A stretch of DNA of 64,000 nucleotides, from NCBI RefSeq assembly GCF_020381325.1, contig NZ_JAGSPI010000010.1:1-64000 (forward strand). Direction: 5' to 3'. The position numbers and the translations under genes are program-made. The DNA is from Providencia vermicola (GTDB lineage: Bacteria > Pseudomonadota > Gammaproteobacteria > Enterobacterales > Enterobacteriaceae). Positions 369 through 50,013 of this stretch are shown here, piece after piece; position 1 is the stretch's first letter; every line of letters starts with the position of its first letter. The notes beneath the pieces are model-generated. The model searched no databases and had not been told where the DNA came from. It saw only the letters and a program-made list of their open reading frames with translations.

Positions 369-1244
369 TTAAAGCGCTAGTTTTTCCAGCGAAATAAACC
401 CTTCTGTTTCAAGTACAGGCCTTAAACCTTGCACAGCATCATTCATTAAGAGGCAATAAGCGAAGTCTTTTTCGTTAGAATCATGAATTTCTGCCTGATT
501 GTTTATCAGCCAAACGGCTCTTCTAGCGATAGCAGAACCTGAATCTATAAACCTTGTTCCATCTGGTAAGACTTTTTCGAGTTCTTCTATTAATAGAGGG
601 AAATGGGTACAGCCTAAAATAACCGTGTCTGGGGGTTCAGGCATTCTGATCCACGACCTTACCGTTTGAGCCACTTCATCTAACGGTAAAGTTTCCCCAT
701 GTAGCTTTCTTTCTGCCAATTGGACTAATTCGGCAGAGCCCAGCGAAACCACTTTGCAGTCCGTAGCGAAACGGTCAATTAATTCTTTCGTGTACTCGCG
801 ATTCACAGTACCTTTCGTGGCTAATAAACCGACCACGCCATTACGCGTGAGTTTAGTAGCAGGCTTGATTGCAGGAACCACGCCGACTACAGGGAAAGTA
901 AAGTGGGCTCTTAGATTCGGTAAACTGACGGTACTTGCAGTATTACATGCAATGATCGCAATTGTTAAAGGATGCTTTGCTGCTATCGCATTAACAATTT
1001 GATAGACCCTATCAATAATAAACTCTTCACTTTTTTCACCGTAAGGAAAAGCTTCGTTATCGAATGCATATATATAGTGCGCATTCGGGATCAGTTTTTT
1101 AACTTCGCGATAGACAGATAACCCGCCCACTCCTGAGTCAAATACAAGAATGGTCGGGCGAACAGATAGGTTGTTATCAGAAGTTGTAGCTTCCGGTAAG
1201 GAAATATTCTCTTCCAGCGGTGCGATAACCATACGCGGTCTCAT
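369..1244 (-). CDS. murI: glutamate racemase
   Basis: Cytoplasmic enzyme that converts L-glutamate to D-glutamate for peptidoglycan precursors. The 291-residue protein has the [10 protein letters not shown] motif near residues 35-44 and both catalytic cysteines, Cys100 in ACNTAS and Cys212 in GCTHFPLL. Length fits the family (E. coli 285). The first 68 bases overlap the 3' end of btuB in another frame, an arrangement also known in E. coli, so the two are probably translationally linked. The rRNA operon follows directly downstream. Confidence 0.97.
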
Positions 1245-3066
1245 AGTCTTTATCGAACATATTAGCTATTTTACCACGAATTGTGAGATGTGAAGTGATT
1301 GGATATGCAGCGGTGAGATCCCAAAGGCTAACGCCACCGAGTTTTACTCGTTTATAAGGCCATTGGCTATAGTCATTATCGTAACGAGAGCCGATATATT
1401 GATAAGTTAATCCCATATCTATCTTATCTATAGACCAATCGAGTTGATATTTAACTTGCTGTTTAGCTCGCCGTTCCAAAACATTGTCTGTTTTTTTATT
1501 TCGTGGGTCAACATACTGATAGGTAACTTGATGCTGAAAAATACCCGTTTCGAACTCACCAACCCATTCGACACCCTTGATCTCGGCTTCTCCGATATTC
1601 TCATAAGACGTAATTGATTTACCTGGCTTATATGATGCTATCAAATTATCAATATCATTATGGTATGCATTAAGTTGCCAAAATAGTGGCCCTGTCGTCC
1701 CTTCAACACCAACTTCCCACTGTTTACTTTCCTCTGGTTTCAAGTTCGGATTACCTATTGTTGTTCCGTATACCGATGAAGAATATGCATATAGCTGTGT
1801 TAAATTTGGTGCTTTATAGGCTGTTGCATATGAACCAACCAGTTTATACCCTTCATAGAACTCCCAGCTTAGCCCTGACTGCCACGTTGTATGCCAGTTA
1901 AATTCAGAGTGGTGATCAGAACGTATCGCTGCTTCTGCTGTTACAGAATCAATAACGGCATATTGCCCTGTCAGGTATATCCCAGTGTTATTTAACGTCT
2001 GCTTTTCACTAATTATTGTATAACTGCTAGGCTCAATGCTCTGGCGTTGATAGTCAACCCCTGCACTAATGTTACCTTTATCTAATAGGTAACTATTACC
2101 CCATTGAATGTTGTACTGACTTGATTCATCTAAGTTAGCATTTGCACCATACTGCCCTTGTTTAGGGTCATAATTATAATCTTTAACGTGGCTATAACTG
2201 CCCATCAACGATGTCGAATATCTATCATTATGATATTTCAAACCAGTTTCATAAGTGCGACTATATAATTTGCGAGTATCGACACTCACACCATTATATT
2301 CAGACGTATCATAATCAGTTCGATTATCATAACCATAGGCTCTAGCGTACGCTGAAACATCAGAGGTAAATTGATGTTCAATCCCTAACCATAGTGTTTT
2401 ATTCAGGAAGCCATCTTTATCATATTGCCTTGGGCTAACCTCTTTCGGTGCTAAATCAAACCCTTTGGTATAGGTATAAGCGCCCGCCGCGGTTACTGTG
2501 GTATTTTCACCAATTTTTTGCTGGGTCGAGCCGTTATAGTTTTGATAACCATGCGAACCAATACCTGCATTTAATGTTGTCCCATCGTTATCACGACGAG
2601 TAATAATATTCACCACGCCACCAATAGCATCAGAACCATAAACAGCTGAACGCGCACCACGGATATATTCGATACGTTGAACTAATGAGATTGGAATTTG
2701 GCTCATATCTGATGAACCCGAAATACCTGCTTGATTTAAACGGACACCATCAATTAAAACCAAAACATGGCGAGATTCTGTTCCTCTAATAAAGAGAGAA
2801 CTTTGTTGCCCCATTCCGCCATTTTGCGCAATATCCACTCCCGGTAAACGCCTTAATACATCTATCACGGTATTTGACTGCCAATGATCGATATCTTCAC
2901 GGGTCACGACAGTAACTGGGGCTAATATAGACGAAATTGGTTGTTCGAAACGATTGGCTGATACGACAACTTCATCCGTTTTATTATTTGCACTTGCCAG
3001 AGAAGAAACACCGCATAACACTGCCACAGCAGCGGCCGATAATGGCAGCAACTTGTTATTATTCAT
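1177..3066 (-). CDS. btuB: TonB-dependent vitamin B12 outer-membrane receptor
   Basis: 22-stranded outer-membrane receptor that imports cobalamin using TonB energy. The 629 residues begin with a signal peptide (about 1-26), followed by a TonB box ([12 protein letters not shown], about 31-42), a plug domain with VLVLIDGVR and [10 protein letters not shown], and a barrel ending in the typical C-terminal Phe (GSYNF). It is somewhat longer than E. coli BtuB (614). The 3' end overlaps murI. The leader carries a cobalamin riboswitch, so expression should fall when intracellular adenosylcobalamin is high. Confidence 0.97.
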
Positions 3067-3103
3067 TATGATTACACTCGGAAAATCAATTAAATTAAAA
3101 TTC

Positions 3104-3420
3104 CGCGAAGTTGAATAAAAGGTTCGCGCTGATATTCAACAAAGCGATAAGAAGTGTGGCAGGTATCGGACTCATAAGTTCCAAAGCGTTATTTCTATAA
3201 TAAAAAAACAGAACAGATGCTTGTATATATCCTAAACAATCCAAGTGACATGTAGGTGGCAAGCGAAGATATCCCTAGGGGCATACTGAAGTATGTGACT
3301 AGGGTAACTAAACGCTGCCAACCCCCATGTAGCTTGAAGAATGACGGATAAACCCTTAATTACCGTTGCGCGTCAGTCTTGGATTCACACCAAATTCCCT
3401 CAACCACACACTGTTATCGT
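3104..3420 (-). promoter_or_regulatory. cobalamin riboswitch of btuB, split by an ERIC element
   Basis: On the minus strand, 3361-3400 reads the conserved core GGGAATTTGGTG, then TGAATCC, then CTGACGCGCAACGGTAA. The B12 box AGTCCGATACCTGCCA lies at 3157-3172. Together these are the hallmarks of the AdoCbl riboswitch. Between them sits a complete ERIC repeat (about 3226-3350). Downstream of the B12 box two mutually exclusive hairpins can form: GTTGAAT/ATTCAAC (3110-3116 with 3134-3140) and CGCGAA/TTCGCG (3104-3109 with 3123-3128). They look like a switching expression platform in front of the btuB start. Confidence 0.82.
3226..3350 (+). repeat. ERIC (IRU) element inside the btuB riboswitch
   Basis: It has the ERIC layout: a GTAGGTGGCAAGCGAAG left arm, a central hairpin with GGCATACTGAAGTATGTGACTAGGG, and the right end AGCTTGAAGAATGACGG. 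It is flanked by TA at both ends, the known ERIC target. It lies in the variable part of the riboswitch, between the core and the B12 box. Confidence 0.9.
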
Positions 3421-3533
3421 AAGTTGAATAGTTATGAGTGTCTATGGATCGATAATGAAAACTGGACATCTTCGCCGCATTCCCTACAATTTCGCCCCTG
3501 ATATGAATTTTTTACTGTTTTATGGGGCCAAGT

Positions 3534-35002: not shown

Positions 35003-35127
35003 TTCCTCTAAATCGTTCGCTTCGTAGGTAGGCGGTAAACGACGCTAACCCAAGGAGCATACATAAGTATGTGACTTGGGTAGCACAGTGCAACCAACAC
35101 CCCTACGAACCGAAATATGACGAGGAA
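35003..35127 (+). repeat. ERIC element, zapB 3' side, copy 1
   Basis: Complete element from CTCTAAATCG to ATATGACGAGG, with the central GGAGCATACATAAGTATGTG hairpin loop. Confidence 0.92.
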
Positions 35128-35128
35128 A

Positions 35129-35235
35129 CAGGTAGGCGGCAAGTGAAGGATATCCCGATGAGCATACACAAGTATGTGATTCGGGTATCCAAACGAAGCC
35201 AGCGCTCTACAACGTGAGGTATAACAAACATTTCT
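35129..35235 (+). repeat. ERIC element, zapB 3' side, copy 2 (5'-truncated)
   Basis: It starts at AGGTAGGCGGCAAG and lacks the usual CTCTAAATA left end. It has the central GAGCATACACAAGTATGTG and a diverged right end GAGGTATAACAAA. Confidence 0.88.
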
Positions 35236-35357
35236 CTAAATAATTCGTGTTGTAGGTAGGCGGCAAGTCGATAAGACCCTAGGAGCATACATAAGTATGT
35301 GACTAGGGCGAAGAGACGAAGCCAACACCCCTACAACGCGAAGTATGACGAGAAATT
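35232..35357 (+). repeat. ERIC element, zapB 3' side, copy 3
   Basis: Complete element from TTCTCTAAATAATTCG to GTATGACGAGAAAT. Its right end touches the zapB stop codon (35356-35358). Confidence 0.92.
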
Positions 35358-38489: not shown

Positions 38490-41400
38490 ATGGATGACCA
38501 ACAAAAACAACAGAAAGTATTAAAGCTAGGGTTATATCGAAATAGAGGTAGAGTCGCAGTACTGGATTCGAATTCACCATGGTTGGCCGCATTACAAAAA
38601 AATCCCGTGTCCACTCAGGAAGCAACAGCATCACATGGCCTATTCAGCTGGCTAATTGATAAGCCTAGAATGATTGGAGAAACTAAGTATCACTTTGTAC
38701 TTAGCACCCTACCCGAGGAGGCATTTTCAGGTTTTCACTTTCATTCACAACAAGGCCTATTTATTGATAGTTTTAATTCACCCCACGAATGGCGAGAAGG
38801 CGAGCCCCGCGCTCAAGAACAAATTGCTGATTTACTGCTACCCAGCGGTCAGTGGCACCGCCATTATGATATCGTGGTGCTTTCTGAAAGCGCCAACGAT
38901 AAACAAGTTGAATTAATTCGTCACTGGCTAGAATTAACTGGGGGGGGCCTGTTAATCATTCGAGATAGCCAAAAAGCAGTATCTCAACCAGTCCAGCAAT
39001 TGATAGCTGAATTATCCCCTGTAGAGCAAAATAAAATTTGGCCATCGCGAGTGAAACACCATGGTTACCAACACACCATTACGCTTCCCCCTGCCTCAAT
39101 CAATTCGCTCAAATTAACCGATGAATTATTGGAAAATGCGCAGTATTTTTCGATTGCCATTCACAATATTGATGGAAAACCACTTATTACGCTGCATGAT
39201 ATCCCCCTTGGACGCCACACATCATGGAATTCTATAGCTCAAGCGATTGAATTCAATGTAAATCAAGAGATAGTAGCATTACAGCAAAATCCCATCACAG
39301 TGAGATATCAAAATAACACGCTGAATATGACGGGAAAGCACATTGTTTTTTCACAATTTCAGCTAAAGCAACAGCGAGGGGAACAAATACTACCGATTTT
39401 GGTGGCTGAAAACACCCATAAACTTCCCAATCAACTGATTATTGGCACGGTAACAGGGCAATTAGCTCAGCATGATAATATTCAGCGATATCAGGTTCTT
39501 GAGCAGGCTAAGTTTGGCGATGTGACTATCGATCCGCAAACTGGAAAATGGATCTATACCCCCCATGAAACTGCATTGAGATCAAACCCAGATCAATTTG
39601 ATTTAGTGACAATCCGCCACGATGGTCGCCAATCTGAACCAATTTCCATTCATTTACAAACGGATGAAGCTCCCCAAATCGTTATACCTGGAAAACGAAC
39701 CTTTGCCCTTTCAGACCCGATTTATCAGGCTCCCAAGCGACGATATCACCCCACACCAGAAGGTATGCAGGTTCATGGTATTCAACTGGCGCAAACTCAC
39801 TTACAGTCACCGAATGACCCTTATTTTAGCCTAACCGCTAACCGTTGGGCACTGCTCAAAGTGGATATCACGCACCCCTATTCCGCTAATTCCCCTGATT
39901 TAGTGGCTATTGTCAGCAATAAAGAAAAAAAAATATTGGCACGAGTCGCTATGACGGGGCCTGACAACCTACCAACTCAATTAACCCCCCTCCCTAATAC
40001 CATGAATCCCTTAGCCTACCACCAGCACGCCCAAAGTTTTACCGCACCCATAAAAGGTGAGTGGGTACAACCTGGTTTTCAAATTGTTATCGTTGCCAAC
40101 CGAAAAGCCTTGATTACCCCAGAAACAAACCAATACGGGCTCATTTCACCCAACGTGACATTGGATAGTCATATCACTGCCTATGTTGATAACCATACTC
40201 TATACCAGCACGGCCACGGTATTTATGCCTACTCTCCACTGAGCTGGGGACAAGAAGCGGTGGCGATATTACCAGTTAAGCAACTCACCCTGTATAGCTC
40301 CCCTGTAACCACTCGAAACCCAAGCGTGCATCCTTATAAAGAGCTCATTTATGACGCAGAAAATTTAATTCACCCTAAATATGATGACCCCAAAAAAGTT
40401 CCCAACCATCTCGACTCACAAATCAACTGGGCATATTTAAATAGTTCACAATTTCACGATTCAAATCATTCAGATGCAATTTACCATTATTCGGCGATCC
40501 ACCCCTTTACCGCATCACTCCGTTATCATGTTCTCGGCTTGGCAAGGCGACATGTAGGCGGCGGCATACATAAGCCAACAACCTTATGGCATGAAATCTT
40601 TGGCCATGGGTTAGGCTTACCTCATACTAATGTTAAAAATACGAAATACCCTTATGACCCAACAGCTCACGGCCCAACGCCTGCCTATAACCAGCACCGT
40701 CAGCACTATTCCACTTATCAATACCAAGATAAACATGGAAACACTATTCCCCTTTACCCAGCGATGTACGCCAGCCATTCCTATTTTACTAGCGAACAAT
40801 ATGATGCATTTTTGCCCCACTCTGATTATTTTAACCAACGCATTTTGCAATTTTTAAGCCAAAAAACACGCTGGCAACCGAACCACACTAAAGGGGAAGA
40901 TATTGAGGATAACAACTTTGCAGGGGATGGTTTTTACCAACATTGGGATGATTCAAAAAAGCAGTGGGAAACCTTAACGCAGGAAAACTTCACCCAATAT
41001 TATCCATACAAAAATATCGATGAATGGCCCCATCAGCGCGATGTACCTGTGTATTGGCTTCGCGGTCAGTTCGCCTCCAAAGATGGCATTCCTCATCCTT
41101 ATAATACGTTACTGGTAGACCGTACAATCGGTAACCTACCCGCTGATTATCATAACCTGGAAACGGGTAAAGGCCGCCCTTATTACCCCTATCATAGTCA
41201 TGCCATTGTGGTGACTTATGCAACATCGAATGGCTTAATCACAGAAAAATTACAAGTCAAAATATATGAAAATGATATTAGCTTAAATATTGCAGACAAA
41301 GGTGAGCTGGTTAAATTCGCGTTATACCAGCTCAATCCCCAAAAAGAGCTGGGGCAAGAGATCGCCCAATATACCAACCCTTCGTCATTGGCAAATCGTC

Positions 41401-42203
41401 TATTTGCAAATAGCCACACTGATGAATTGCCAGAGAGACTCATTTTAGATAATTATTGGCAAGGAAATACACTTTTTTGGGCAAGTACAGATGTAGATTC
41501 TATTGATTTTTCAACGGGTAAAGTAAATAAAGAAAAAATTACACCACTAAGTGCACTAAAAGCAAACTGGGTTGTAGGCGGCAAACTACATCAACAATAT
41601 TTTTCTTTGTCTGACCCATTTGGCCAAAAAGATAACCTGTATACCTCTCAATCTTTCACGCCAATAAACCACCTCAATAAACAGATAGAAACATCACAGG
41701 AAGTTATATGTATCGCCGTCCGCGCTGAACAATCATTGATTGCTGATATGAATATCCACCAAGAAATTGACATAACGAACTTATCATTACCTGAAGGTGA
41801 GTATCGTTATTGGGTAACTCTAAAGATGGTCGATAAAAAAGGTGAACAACAAGAAAAGACGCCACTAGAGGATTGGTACTTTTCACATGAAAAGATGACA
41901 TTAACAGTAAGAGGAACCATTGACAGCACACCAGGCTTAGAGTGCACTGATATCATTATTCATATTGACTCACATTTACAAGATAGTATCAACGCGAGGA
42001 AAATCTGGCTTGTACAAGACAAAAACTTACCGCTAACAGAGGATAAAACATTTTTAGATTATCACCGCCCAGTTGTGTTTAATGCACTCGCCAACCAAGC
42101 GGAACTTATATCGGCGCTTCCAACACAGGAGGCATACACGGCGACTTCATCATCCGATATCGCCACACCGAAACTCTATTTAGCGGGTATACCGACTCAA
42201 TAA
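38490..42203 (+). CDS. giant M66-like zinc metalloprotease
   Basis: A 1237-residue protein that I relate to the StcE/TagA (peptidase M66) family, with moderate confidence. No signal peptide is visible (MDDQQKQQKVLKLGLYRNRG). Residues about 128-163 (IVVLSESAND, GGGLLIIRD) look like a small alpha/beta domain. Residues about 318-390 (GTVTGQLAQ, VTIDPQTGKWIYTP) look like a VCBS/Ig-like repeat. WVQPGFQIVIVAN (about 525) recalls the M66 region before the catalytic domain. The active site reads HEIFGHGLGLPH, with His701, Glu702, His706 and His712, which is one residue longer than canonical HExxHxxGxxH. The C-terminal 330 residues are beta-rich. It stands alone between two hairpins, after glpFK, where glpX is expected. 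Confidence 0.78.
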   Translation: MDDQQKQQKVLKLGLYRNRGRVAVLDSNSPWLAALQKNPVSTQEATASHGLFSWLIDKPRMIGETKYHFVLSTLPEEAFSGFHFHSQQGLFIDSFNSPHEWREGEPRAQEQIADLLLPSGQWHRHYDIVVLSESANDKQVELIRHWLELTGGGLLIIRDSQKAVSQPVQQLIAELSPVEQNKIWPSRVKHHGYQHTITLPPASINSLKLTDELLENAQYFSIAIHNIDGKPLITLHDIPLGRHTSWNSIAQAIEFNVNQEIVALQQNPITVRYQNNTLNMTGKHIVFSQFQLKQQRGEQILPILVAENTHKLPNQLIIGTVTGQLAQHDNIQRYQVLEQAKFGDVTIDPQTGKWIYTPHETALRSNPDQFDLVTIRHDGRQSEPISIHLQTDEAPQIVIPGKRTFALSDPIYQAPKRRYHPTPEGMQVHGIQLAQTHLQSPNDPYFSLTANRWALLKVDITHPYSANSPDLVAIVSNKEKKILARVAMTGPDNLPTQLTPLPNTMNPLAYHQHAQSFTAPIKGEWVQPGFQIVIVANRKALITPETNQYGLISPNVTLDSHITAYVDNHTLYQHGHGIYAYSPLSWGQEAVAILPVKQLTLYSSPVTTRNPSVHPYKELIYDAENLIHPKYDDPKKVPNHLDSQINWAYLNSSQFHDSNHSDAIYHYSAIHPFTASLRYHVLGLARRHVGGGIHKPTTLWHEIFGHGLGLPHTNVKNTKYPYDPTAHGPTPAYNQHRQHYSTYQYQDKHGNTIPLYPAMYASHSYFTSEQYDAFLPHSDYFNQRILQFLSQKTRWQPNHTKGEDIEDNNFAGDGFYQHWDDSKKQWETLTQENFTQYYPYKNIDEWPHQRDVPVYWLRGQFASKDGIPHPYNTLLVDRTIGNLPADYHNLETGKGRPYYPYHSHAIVVTYATSNGLITEKLQVKIYENDISLNIADKGELVKFALYQLNPQKELGQEIAQYTNPSSLANRLFANSHTDELPERLILDNYWQGNTLFWASTDVDSIDFSTGKVNKEKITPLSALKANWVVGGKLHQQYFSLSDPFGQKDNLYTSQSFTPINHLNKQIETSQEVICIAVRAEQSLIADMNIHQEIDITNLSLPEGEYRYWVTLKMVDKKGEQQEKTPLEDWYFSHEKMTLTVRGTIDSTPGLECTDIIIHIDSHLQDSINARKIWLVQDKNLPLTEDKTFLDYHRPVVFNALANQAELISALPTQEAYTATSSSDIATPKLYLAGIPTQ

Positions 42204-48011: not shown

Positions 48012-48136
48012 TTTTCAAAATAGTTTGAGTTGCAGCTAGGCGGCAAGTAAGCGAATCCCTAGAAGCATACACCAGTATGTGACTAGGGTGAGCGCACGCA
48101 GCTAACAACGCTGCGGCTCAAAATATGACGAATATT
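48012..48136 (+). repeat. ERIC element, sbp 3' side, copy 1
   Basis: It contains GCTAGGCGGCAAGTAAGCG, the central AGAAGCATACACCAGTATGTG, and right end AAATATGACGAATATT. Confidence 0.9.
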
Positions 48137-48264
48137 AATACTCTAAATAGTTCAAATTGTAGGTAGGCGGCGAGCTAAGCGAATCCCTAGGAGCATACAC
48201 CAGTATGTGACTAGGGTGAGTGAGTGAAGCCAACACCCCTACAAATTGAAATATGACGAGTATT
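48137..48264 (+). repeat. ERIC element, sbp 3' side, copy 2
   Basis: Complete element from AATACTCTAAATAGTTC to ATGACGAGTATT. The last bases overlap the sbp stop codon (48263-48265). Confidence 0.92.
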
Positions 48265-49390: not shown

Positions 49391-49504
49391 AGATTTAAGT
49401 TGTGACTAGGCGGCAAACGAGGATAGCTCAGGGAGCATACATAAATATGTGACTAGGGTTAGTGAGCGTAGCCAACCTCCTACAGCTTAAAATATAGAGA
49501 AGAT
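49391..49504 (+). repeat. ERIC element, pfkA 3' side, copy 1
   Basis: It carries AGTTGTGACTAGGCGGCAAACG, the central GGAGCATACATAAATATGTG and the right end AAAATATAGAGAAGAT. The left end is abbreviated. Confidence 0.88.
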
Positions 49505-50013
49505 CCATCTTCTAAATAATTTGAGTTGTGACTAGGCGGTAAACGAGGATAGCTCGGGGAGCATACATAAGTATGTGACCCGAGTAGCCGAGAACAGCCA
49601 ACAACGTCACAGCTCAAAGTATGACGAAGATCCTCTTCTAAATAGTTCAAGTTGTAAGTAGGCGGCAAGCAAAGTTAATCCCTAGGAGCATACATAAGTA
49701 TGTGACTAGGGTTAGTGTGCGTAGCCAACACCCCTACAGCTTGAAATATAAAGAAGATCCATCTTCTAAATAATTTGAGTTGTGACTAGGCGGCAAACGA
49801 GGATAGCTCGGGGAGCATACATAAGTATGTGACCCGAGTAGCCGAGAACAGCCAACAACGTCACAGCTCAAAGTATGACGAAGATCCTCTTCTAAATAGT
49901 TCAAGTTGTAGGTAGGCGGCAAGCAAAGCTAATCCCTAGGAGCATACATAAGTATGTGACTAGGGTTAGTGTGCGTAGCCAACACCCCTACAGCTTGAAA
50001 TATGACGAAGATT
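49505..50013 (+). repeat. tandem duplication of a 254-bp ERIC dimer
   Basis: Positions 49505-49759 and 49759-50013 are near-identical over 254 bp; I find only a handful of differences (for example GGCGGT/GGCGGC, GTTGTAAGT/GTTGTAGGT, AATATAAAG/AATATGACG). Each unit holds two diverged ERIC elements: 49509-49631, 49635-49758, 49763-49885 and 49889-50013. The last one ends at the pfkA stop codon. Confidence 0.93.

Follow-up and report, generated by a model that had tools for sequence, protein, structure and literature searches.

An ERIC repeat within the accessory arm of a probable cobalamin riboswitch upstream of btuB in Providencia

The btuB leader and its interrupted aptamer core

The window, that is, the whole 64,000-nucleotide stretch of Providencia vermicola DNA analysed here, carries genes matching the NCBIfam names BtuB, glutamate racemase, TrmA, FabR, transhydrogenase, and OxyR. 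The btuB gene is a 629-aa open reading frame on the minus strand (1177-3066, with the start codon at 3064..3066 and the frame running on to 1177), with a match of 985 bits to the NCBIfam BtuB equivalog. It is preceded by a leader of approximately 350 nt on the same strand, which faces trmA. All the leader features described below are on the minus strand, apart from the ERIC (enterobacterial repetitive intergenic consensus) repeat, to which no strand is assigned.

The portion of the leader closest to the gene contains a GAG triplet (3077-3079), the presumed ribosome-binding site, and an adjoining CGGAA/UUCCG hairpin (3101-3105 with 3079-3083) with a presumptive role of its own, in which four of the five placed pairs are kept in nearly all the aligned leaders. 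Further upstream is the P13 hairpin (3133-3140 with 3110-3117), paired in 94.6% of the cells of an alignment of 21 leaders, and its loop includes the sequence GCGCG (3125-3129), which is complementary to loop L5 of the aptamer. At the far end of the leader, immediately upstream of helix P1, a promoter-like sequence, TAGACA-17 nt-TACGAT (3416..3444), has nine of 12 matches and is mostly kept in the leader alignment, with two such sites in the region, compared with a mean of 1.2 in shuffled sequences.

The aptamer core lies between these features, in two parts. The 5' side (3360..3409) contains the 5' strands of P1 (3404-3409), P3 (GGG, 3397-3399), and P6 (3363-3365), as well as P4 (3390-3394 with 3378-3382), P5 and L5, with ACGCG (3366-3376), and the UAA that forms the 5' half of loop L6 (3360-3362). 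The 3' side (3154..3173) supplies the 3' strands of P1 (3154-3159), P3 (3161-3163), and P6 (3167-3169), the joining segment J6/3, AUA (3164-3166), and the 3' half of L6, GAGU (3170-3173). An earlier note, based on the letters of the window, had proposed that the conserved core motifs and the B12 box of a cobalamin riboswitch are both intact at this locus, and this is confirmed, to within one base, for the motifs GCGCAACGGTAA (3360-3371) and GGGAATTTGGTG (3388-3399), and for the box AGTCCGATACCTGCCA, which is found at 3157-3172, upstream of btuB.

The same note placed a full ERIC repeat between the core and the box. The repeat is complete, but the separator is a 186-nt arm (3174-3359), of which the ERIC (3226..3351) makes up approximately 126 nt, leaving 8 and 52 nt that do not belong to it. 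The arm is located inside the terminal loop of P6, in the arrangement CGG-UAA / arm / (A/G)AGU-CCG. Its short 5' part, UUAAGGGU (3352..3359), is the 5' strand of a base stem, P7, by its pairing in the alignment, and the 3' strand of this stem lies within the non-ERIC 3' part (3174..3225), which also contains a hairpin indicated by the pairing counts (CAAGC at 3219-3223 with GCUUUG at 3182-3187). No second copy of this 52-nt part was found in the genome, where the next best match reaches 31 bits (E 0.12).

Scored with a profile derived from 22 further copies in the same genome, the ERIC of the btuB leader reaches 89.5 bits at 3227-3347 (profile positions 2-122), and it is an imperfect palindrome that folds into one long hairpin. 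The genome contains 72 ERIC-like matches, the btuB copy included (40 of 86 first-look candidates scored). This copy resembles ERICs in general in being an inverted repeat of approximately 126 nt with many copies, but differs in its location inside a structured regulatory RNA. In a scan of 139 leader stretches, Providencia was the only genus with an ERIC inside the aptamer; the element lies beside the aptamer in Providencia genome G011, in Buttiauxella (L108), and in Rahnella (L043 and L126). Head-to-tail ERIC arrays are found elsewhere in the window, at 35003-35352 (three copies), 48012-48260 (two), and 49394-50008 (five), and their copy number varies among the sister genomes, with seven in a row in G014. 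The Rfam family RF02818 (Vibrio RNA AS5), which may itself be an ERIC, matches the btuB copy on the plus strand at 3225-3344, with 30.2 bits (E 0.00057), below the cut-off.

The Rfam cobalamin model, RF00174, into which the ERIC is forced, scores 21.7 bits on the whole element, below the gathering score of 31.5, and this leader is the sole match to the model in the genome at E values of up to 10. The 5' half of the core alone scores 29.0 bits, and the 3' half alone has no match; with the halves scored separately, the model test suggested in the earlier note turns out in favour of its proposal. A natural pair points in the same direction, with 24.7 bits for the ERIC-bearing leader of G023 versus 41.2 for the leader of G003, which has no arm. 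More widely, scores lie between 17.9 and 27.1 bits in 12 of the 13 ERIC leaders, while that of G017 reaches 36.3, above the cut-off despite its ERIC in place, and the six armless sister leaders score 29.7-41.2 bits. A compact-aptamer model built from these six armless Providencia leaders finds two half-matches in the window, at 3300-3415 (41.2 bits) and 3107-3245 (47.1 bits), which flank the middle of the arm, and the same is true of each of the 12 other ERIC leaders. Given that the model is derived from close relatives, these half-matches show homology rather than function. Together with the preserved pairing of the core, they support the proposal of the note, in which the ERIC extends a variable arm while the ligand core stays whole.

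Leader forms and core changes in the genus

The search covered 24 genomes of the genus, in 23 of which btuB is present; G016 lacks an ortholog of the gene (34% for the best match) and has only very weak RF00174 matches, of 11.7 bits at best. The flanking core and the box were found in all 23 btuB-bearing genomes, so that their absence from relatives, which the earlier note would have taken as a refutation, is not observed, and three forms of the leader can be recognised: an ERIC arm in 13 genomes, including that of the window, an ordinary arm in four (G004, G019, G020, and G021), and no arm in six (G003, G005, G006, G008, G011, and G013). The presence of the ERIC in 13 of the 23 genomes is in keeping with the tolerated insertion envisaged in the earlier note. 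The L6 loop of the armless leaders is UAAAAGU, of seven bases, in five of the six, and has six bases in G003; the short closed L6 of compact aptamers is absent from the window leader, with its 186-nt arm. The ordinary-type arm of L004 and L005 (G019 and G004) is approximately 100 nt longer than that of G020 and G021, perhaps through another, decayed insertion, and a very weak resemblance to ERIC (11.3 bits, E 0.016) was seen in the L005 arm.

Of these leaders, 21 were aligned (12 ERIC, six armless, and three ordinary), with L003 and L007 left out. Helices P3, P4, and P6 are 100% paired in all 21 sequences, with double changes in P4, and the base stem P7 is 100% paired in all 15 arm-bearing leaders (12 ERIC and three ordinary), with double changes between the ordinary and ERIC forms. 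The percentage of paired cells falls from 90.0% to 52.5% or less when the structure is slid along the alignment, and one of five measures, the number of further standard pair types, was not above that of the shuffles (468 of 500, control (a)). Pairing in P1 is limited to 78.4% of cells, and the C-G pair that closes P5 is lost in all 18 of the aligned reduced leaders, that is, the ERIC and armless forms. The L5 sequence ACGCG and the P13 loop (L13) sequence GCGCG are invariant, with their kissing complementarity present, and this absence of covariation makes the alignment a weak test of the L5-L13 pairing. The core sequence and the P3, P4, and P6 helices are, then, conserved on both sides of the arm, as expected of the RF00174 family. 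In L008 and L012 (G011 and G008), the P1/P2 region appears by eye to be remodelled, with CAGG/CCUG lengthening P3 and, next to this extension, a pair that is A-U in G011 and G-C in G008.

The core of the ERIC and armless leaders has changed relative to the ordinary form. In all 19 of them, an A, not a G, precedes P6 (GCGCAACGG; GCGCAAUGG in G006), J6/3 has three nucleotides (AUA), and neither ACACTG nor GGGAAGT is present, whereas the four ordinary Providencia leaders all have G before P6, AAGA in J6/3, and both ACACTG and GGGAAGT. The comparison was extended to 80 named btuB leaders, 57 of them from outside Providencia with a readable core and box, and the others made up of 12 with no readable core, one with no readable box, and 10 from Providencia (six reduced and four ordinary). 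All 57 have a J6/3 of four nucleotides, and 56 have ACACTG and GGGAAGT. Twelve btuB leaders, of Photorhabdus (L055, L056, L057, L062, L063, L065, L069, L072, and L073), Xenorhabdus (L047 and L052), and Proteus myxofaciens (L079), have neither a readable cobalamin core nor an RF00174 match at the gathering score, while neighbouring genera have one.

The window element resembles the RF00174 riboswitch of the Escherichia coli btuB type, which we take to be class I, in its core motifs, its P3-P6 junction, its L5-L13 complementarity, and its place before btuB. It differs in the lack of ACACTG and GGGAAGT in its arm, the three-nucleotide J6/3, and the missing P5 closing pair. With its AUA in J6/3 and its A before P6, it recalls the compact-looking riboswitches L231 and L237, found in other families, but retains a 186-nt arm, in contrast with the compact cobalamin riboswitches, which have no long P6 arm and are presumably class II; the L6 of the armless Providencia leaders has 6-7 nt. 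A three-nucleotide J6/3 unique to Providencia was considered and rejected, given that AUA is also found in L231 and L237, so that the reduced core also exists outside the genus. The compact model, searched against 295 genomes of the order, matched 26 of them, including that of the window, at an E value of 0.001 or below. Nine of the outside loci were fetched, and eight of them were scanned with Rfam (L234 being the exception). Five of these (L230, L232, L233, L236, and L238) have matches of 73-98 bits, and L235 has one of 65.5 bits, each spanning at least 200 nt, as is usual for ordinary riboswitches, while L231 (111 nt) and, less clearly, L237 (136 nt) look compact.

The distribution of the three forms was plotted on a tree of 25 tips, including two outgroups, based on trmA, fabR, sthA, and oxyR. 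These genes are neighbours of btuB, so the tree describes this region and may be affected by the same transfers, and support is low at several nodes (0.26-0.64). A further candidate marker, the 1237-aa protein encoded at 38490-42203, was dropped for being too variable; its best matches in the other genomes of the genus have 43-76% identity, often over partial length, and it has no NCBIfam match at 1e-10. On the tree, the ordinary arms form one clade together with the armless G011, and the other clade is filled by ERIC forms, with the armless forms scattered among them. A minimum of six changes of leader form is required, a value equalled in three of 2000 label shuffles. The leaders of G003 (armless) and G023 (ERIC) differ at only one of 252 flank positions, which indicates that the loss or exchange of the arm was both recent and clean. 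The identity of BtuB to the protein of the window genome is 66-90% over the full length, and 95% over 231 residues in G012, while G005 and G006, with nearly identical tree genes, have BtuB identities of 90 and 80%, respectively. This mosaic makes it likely that leader alleles have been exchanged by recombination.

Origin and possible roles of the inserted repeat

The flanks of the ERIC in four leaders were joined and compared, in register, with the four ordinary arms. The best match, of 13 of 18 bases, was that of G007 with G019 and G004, a level reached by 18 of 5000 shuffles, family-wise over the 16 comparisons, in a test that was picked after the outcome of a local alignment was known. The local-alignment test itself was weak (29 of 2000 shuffles as high as the best of 16 comparisons). 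As the joined flanks match the ordinary arm better than shuffled sequences do, the ERIC was probably inserted into an arm of the ordinary type, near its base, and the single-copy nature of the 3' stretch of the arm suggests that the ERIC alone, rather than a larger unit, landed there. Duplication of a TA target site is a feature of ERICs, and TA is visible by eye on both sides of the element in the sister leaders of the G012 type, but is not clear in the window.

A composite mobile element was also considered, and rejected, given the single copy of the 3' stretch in the window genome and the restriction of the strong matches of its G012 version to btuB. Among the 24 genomes, this G012 stretch has strong matches (E 6e-28 or better), one each, in nine, all at btuB. 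Other matches at btuB are shorter, covering 51 bases in G007 and 22 each in G018, in the window genome, and in the G005 leader, and there are short, weak matches away from btuB in G008 and G020 (E ~0.005-0.008). These data also bear on the suggestion that the armless form is ancestral in the clade, and that the arm and the ERIC arrived as one insertion. The scattering of the armless alleles on the tree and the shared UAAAAGU loop in five of the six armless leaders are what such a history might leave behind, but the base stem P7 covaries with that of the ordinary arm, the flanks of the ERIC resemble this arm, and no target duplication is visible, by eye, at the ends of the arm. Taken with the single-copy 3' part and the confinement of the strong matches of its G012 version to btuB, this makes arrival as one unit highly improbable.

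A second question is whether the repeat has been domesticated, that is, whether its hairpin has been selected as a working arm that replaces a lost P8-P10, or that tunes the folding of the leader or the decay of the mRNA. The alignment of 12 arms offers some encouragement, with 97.7% of cells paired in the ERIC hairpin and the second hairpin, and six pairs with double changes (three of them in the ERIC), a number not reached in any of 500 shuffles, but 44 of the 500 shuffles did reach the observed number of further pair types, and the structure was drawn from the same alignment. There is also a precedent in Yersinia: according to a review of bacterial miniature elements, an ERIC located at the 3' end of a gene can expose a site for RNase E, so that the mRNA decays faster (PMC10969869). 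The median divergence of the btuB ERIC is 0.059, in comparison with 0.56 at four-fold sites, and the repeat is found in four of four control genomes, a record that no other window copy matches at a divergence of 7% or less. The btuB ERIC itself, however, diverges by 8, 13, 11, and 9% from its counterparts in G018, G014, G012, and G009, and other window ERICs do have counterparts within 7% in these genomes (five of 10 in G018 and two of 10 in each of the others). This control is imperfect: the counterpart of each window copy was chosen from the array copies for its similarity, and the arrays turn over. In two cases, a pair of window copies has a single counterpart in common, and divergence is 10-32% for the rest of the copies.

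The argument for domestication from conservation was thus rejected, given that some of the other window ERICs are equally or more similar between species, which makes the conservation of the btuB copy a poor argument for a role in the riboswitch. The arm cassettes also look exchanged, as in G012 versus G015, where the ERIC differs at one of 127 positions, the core at five of 42, and the four-fold sites by 0.58, and the arm is absent from six of the 23 genomes. Selection of the hairpin for a function in the leader is, on balance, quite unlikely. The window ERICs at 35003, 35231, 48139, and 49507 are some 93-100% identical to their closest copies in G018, G012, and G009, and the four-fold sites of the species sharing such copies differ by 30-52%. 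Near-identical ERICs in different species may reflect either strong constraint or frequent exchange.

The repeat might, on the other hand, poison the switch, by pairing with L5 and the junction so that the aptamer misfolds and btuB is left unregulated. The sequence CGUCA of the ERIC (3342-3346) is complementary to UGACG at L5 (3371-3375) on the minus strand, and the predicted probability of L5-ERIC pairing is 0.49 in the window leader, 0.35 in G017, and a weak 0.18 in G018, but 0.0 in the 10 other ERIC leaders. The predicted number of pairs between the ERIC and bases outside it follows a similar pattern, with 14.8 expected in the window leader and 12.9 in G017; 11 of the 12 ERIC leaders other than that of the window have 4.0 or fewer, and the ERIC is predicted to fold largely by itself in 11 of the 13. 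Ligand-free folding of the window leader gives probabilities of only 0.02 for P4 and 0.00 for P6, but these values are erratic in the ERIC, armless, and ordinary leaders alike, so energy folding does not discriminate among them, and it speaks neither for nor against the change in folding speed or in the B12 set-point of btuB that the earlier note also envisaged. Against a misfolded aptamer, P3, P4, P6, L5, and L13 are kept in every aligned ERIC leader, and the core has a median divergence of 0.095, in comparison with 0.56 at four-fold sites (66 pairs of the 12 ERIC leaders). A switch disabled by its insertion is, accordingly, very unlikely, although with the predicted pairing to L5 the window leader itself may be slowed or disabled.

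Proposed mechanism and significance

The reading favoured here, with a probability of about 0.77, is that the btuB leader is a functional B12 riboswitch, probably acting on translation, and that the ERIC is a tolerated extension of an arm that was already dispensable. The arm exits the core at L6 (CGG-UAA / arm / GAGU-CCG), and an extension here that folds on itself should not disturb the connections among P6, the four-way junction, the B12 box, and the L5-L13 kissing loop. The junction would thus remain closed, which would explain the tolerance of the insertion. When B12 is bound, the pairing of L5 with L13 would stabilise P13 and the adjoining hairpin at the ribosome-binding site, turning translation off. 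This scheme follows the kissing-loop and RBS-hairpin mechanism set out for cobalamin riboswitches in part of one account (PMC10653944), and the general architecture given in a section of another (PMC10907184). In this reading, the RNA would still bind a cobalamin, its control would be translational, and the ERIC would be a passive passenger in an arm no longer needed by the lineage.

The core change common to the ERIC and armless leaders suggests a lineage that had reached, or was on its way to, a compact aptamer independent of the arm. In cobalamin riboswitches, a T-loop interaction between L4 and L6 gives the P3-P6 junction its organisation, as described in a section of PMC10907184, and the L6 loops of the armless leaders are interpreted here as T-loops, to which the shorter loop of G003 is a poorer fit. 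A section of the same source attributes the selectivity for adenosyl- versus methylcobalamin to two peripheral domains (PMC10907184). A bolder reading, which is unlikely as it stands, is that the insertion of the ERIC in a peripheral domain accompanied a shift from an ordinary large aptamer to a compact form whose junction is altered (the three-nucleotide J6/3 and the open P5), and with it a change in the form of cobalamin sensed. The ERIC arm would then be an intermediate or a replacement, and repeated, clean losses of the arm would have completed the conversion.

Among the papers listed from the open full-text literature, which takes in few of the subscription journals, no report of an ERIC inside a riboswitch was found. 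The formation of riboswitches by bacterial miniature elements is treated as only conceivable in a passage of a 2024 review (PMC10969869), and ERICs and riboswitches are mentioned separately in part of a 2008 RNA survey (PMC2527527).

Given the tolerated insertion proposed here, the Providencia leader is an example of a mobile element that has become lodged in a structured regulatory RNA and is kept across species. The btuB leaders of the genus form a natural series, in which the same aptamer is found with an ordinary arm, with an ERIC arm, and with no arm, and which is suited to measuring what the arm does. It is this series, together with the accompanying change in the core, that lifts the finding above a curiosity.
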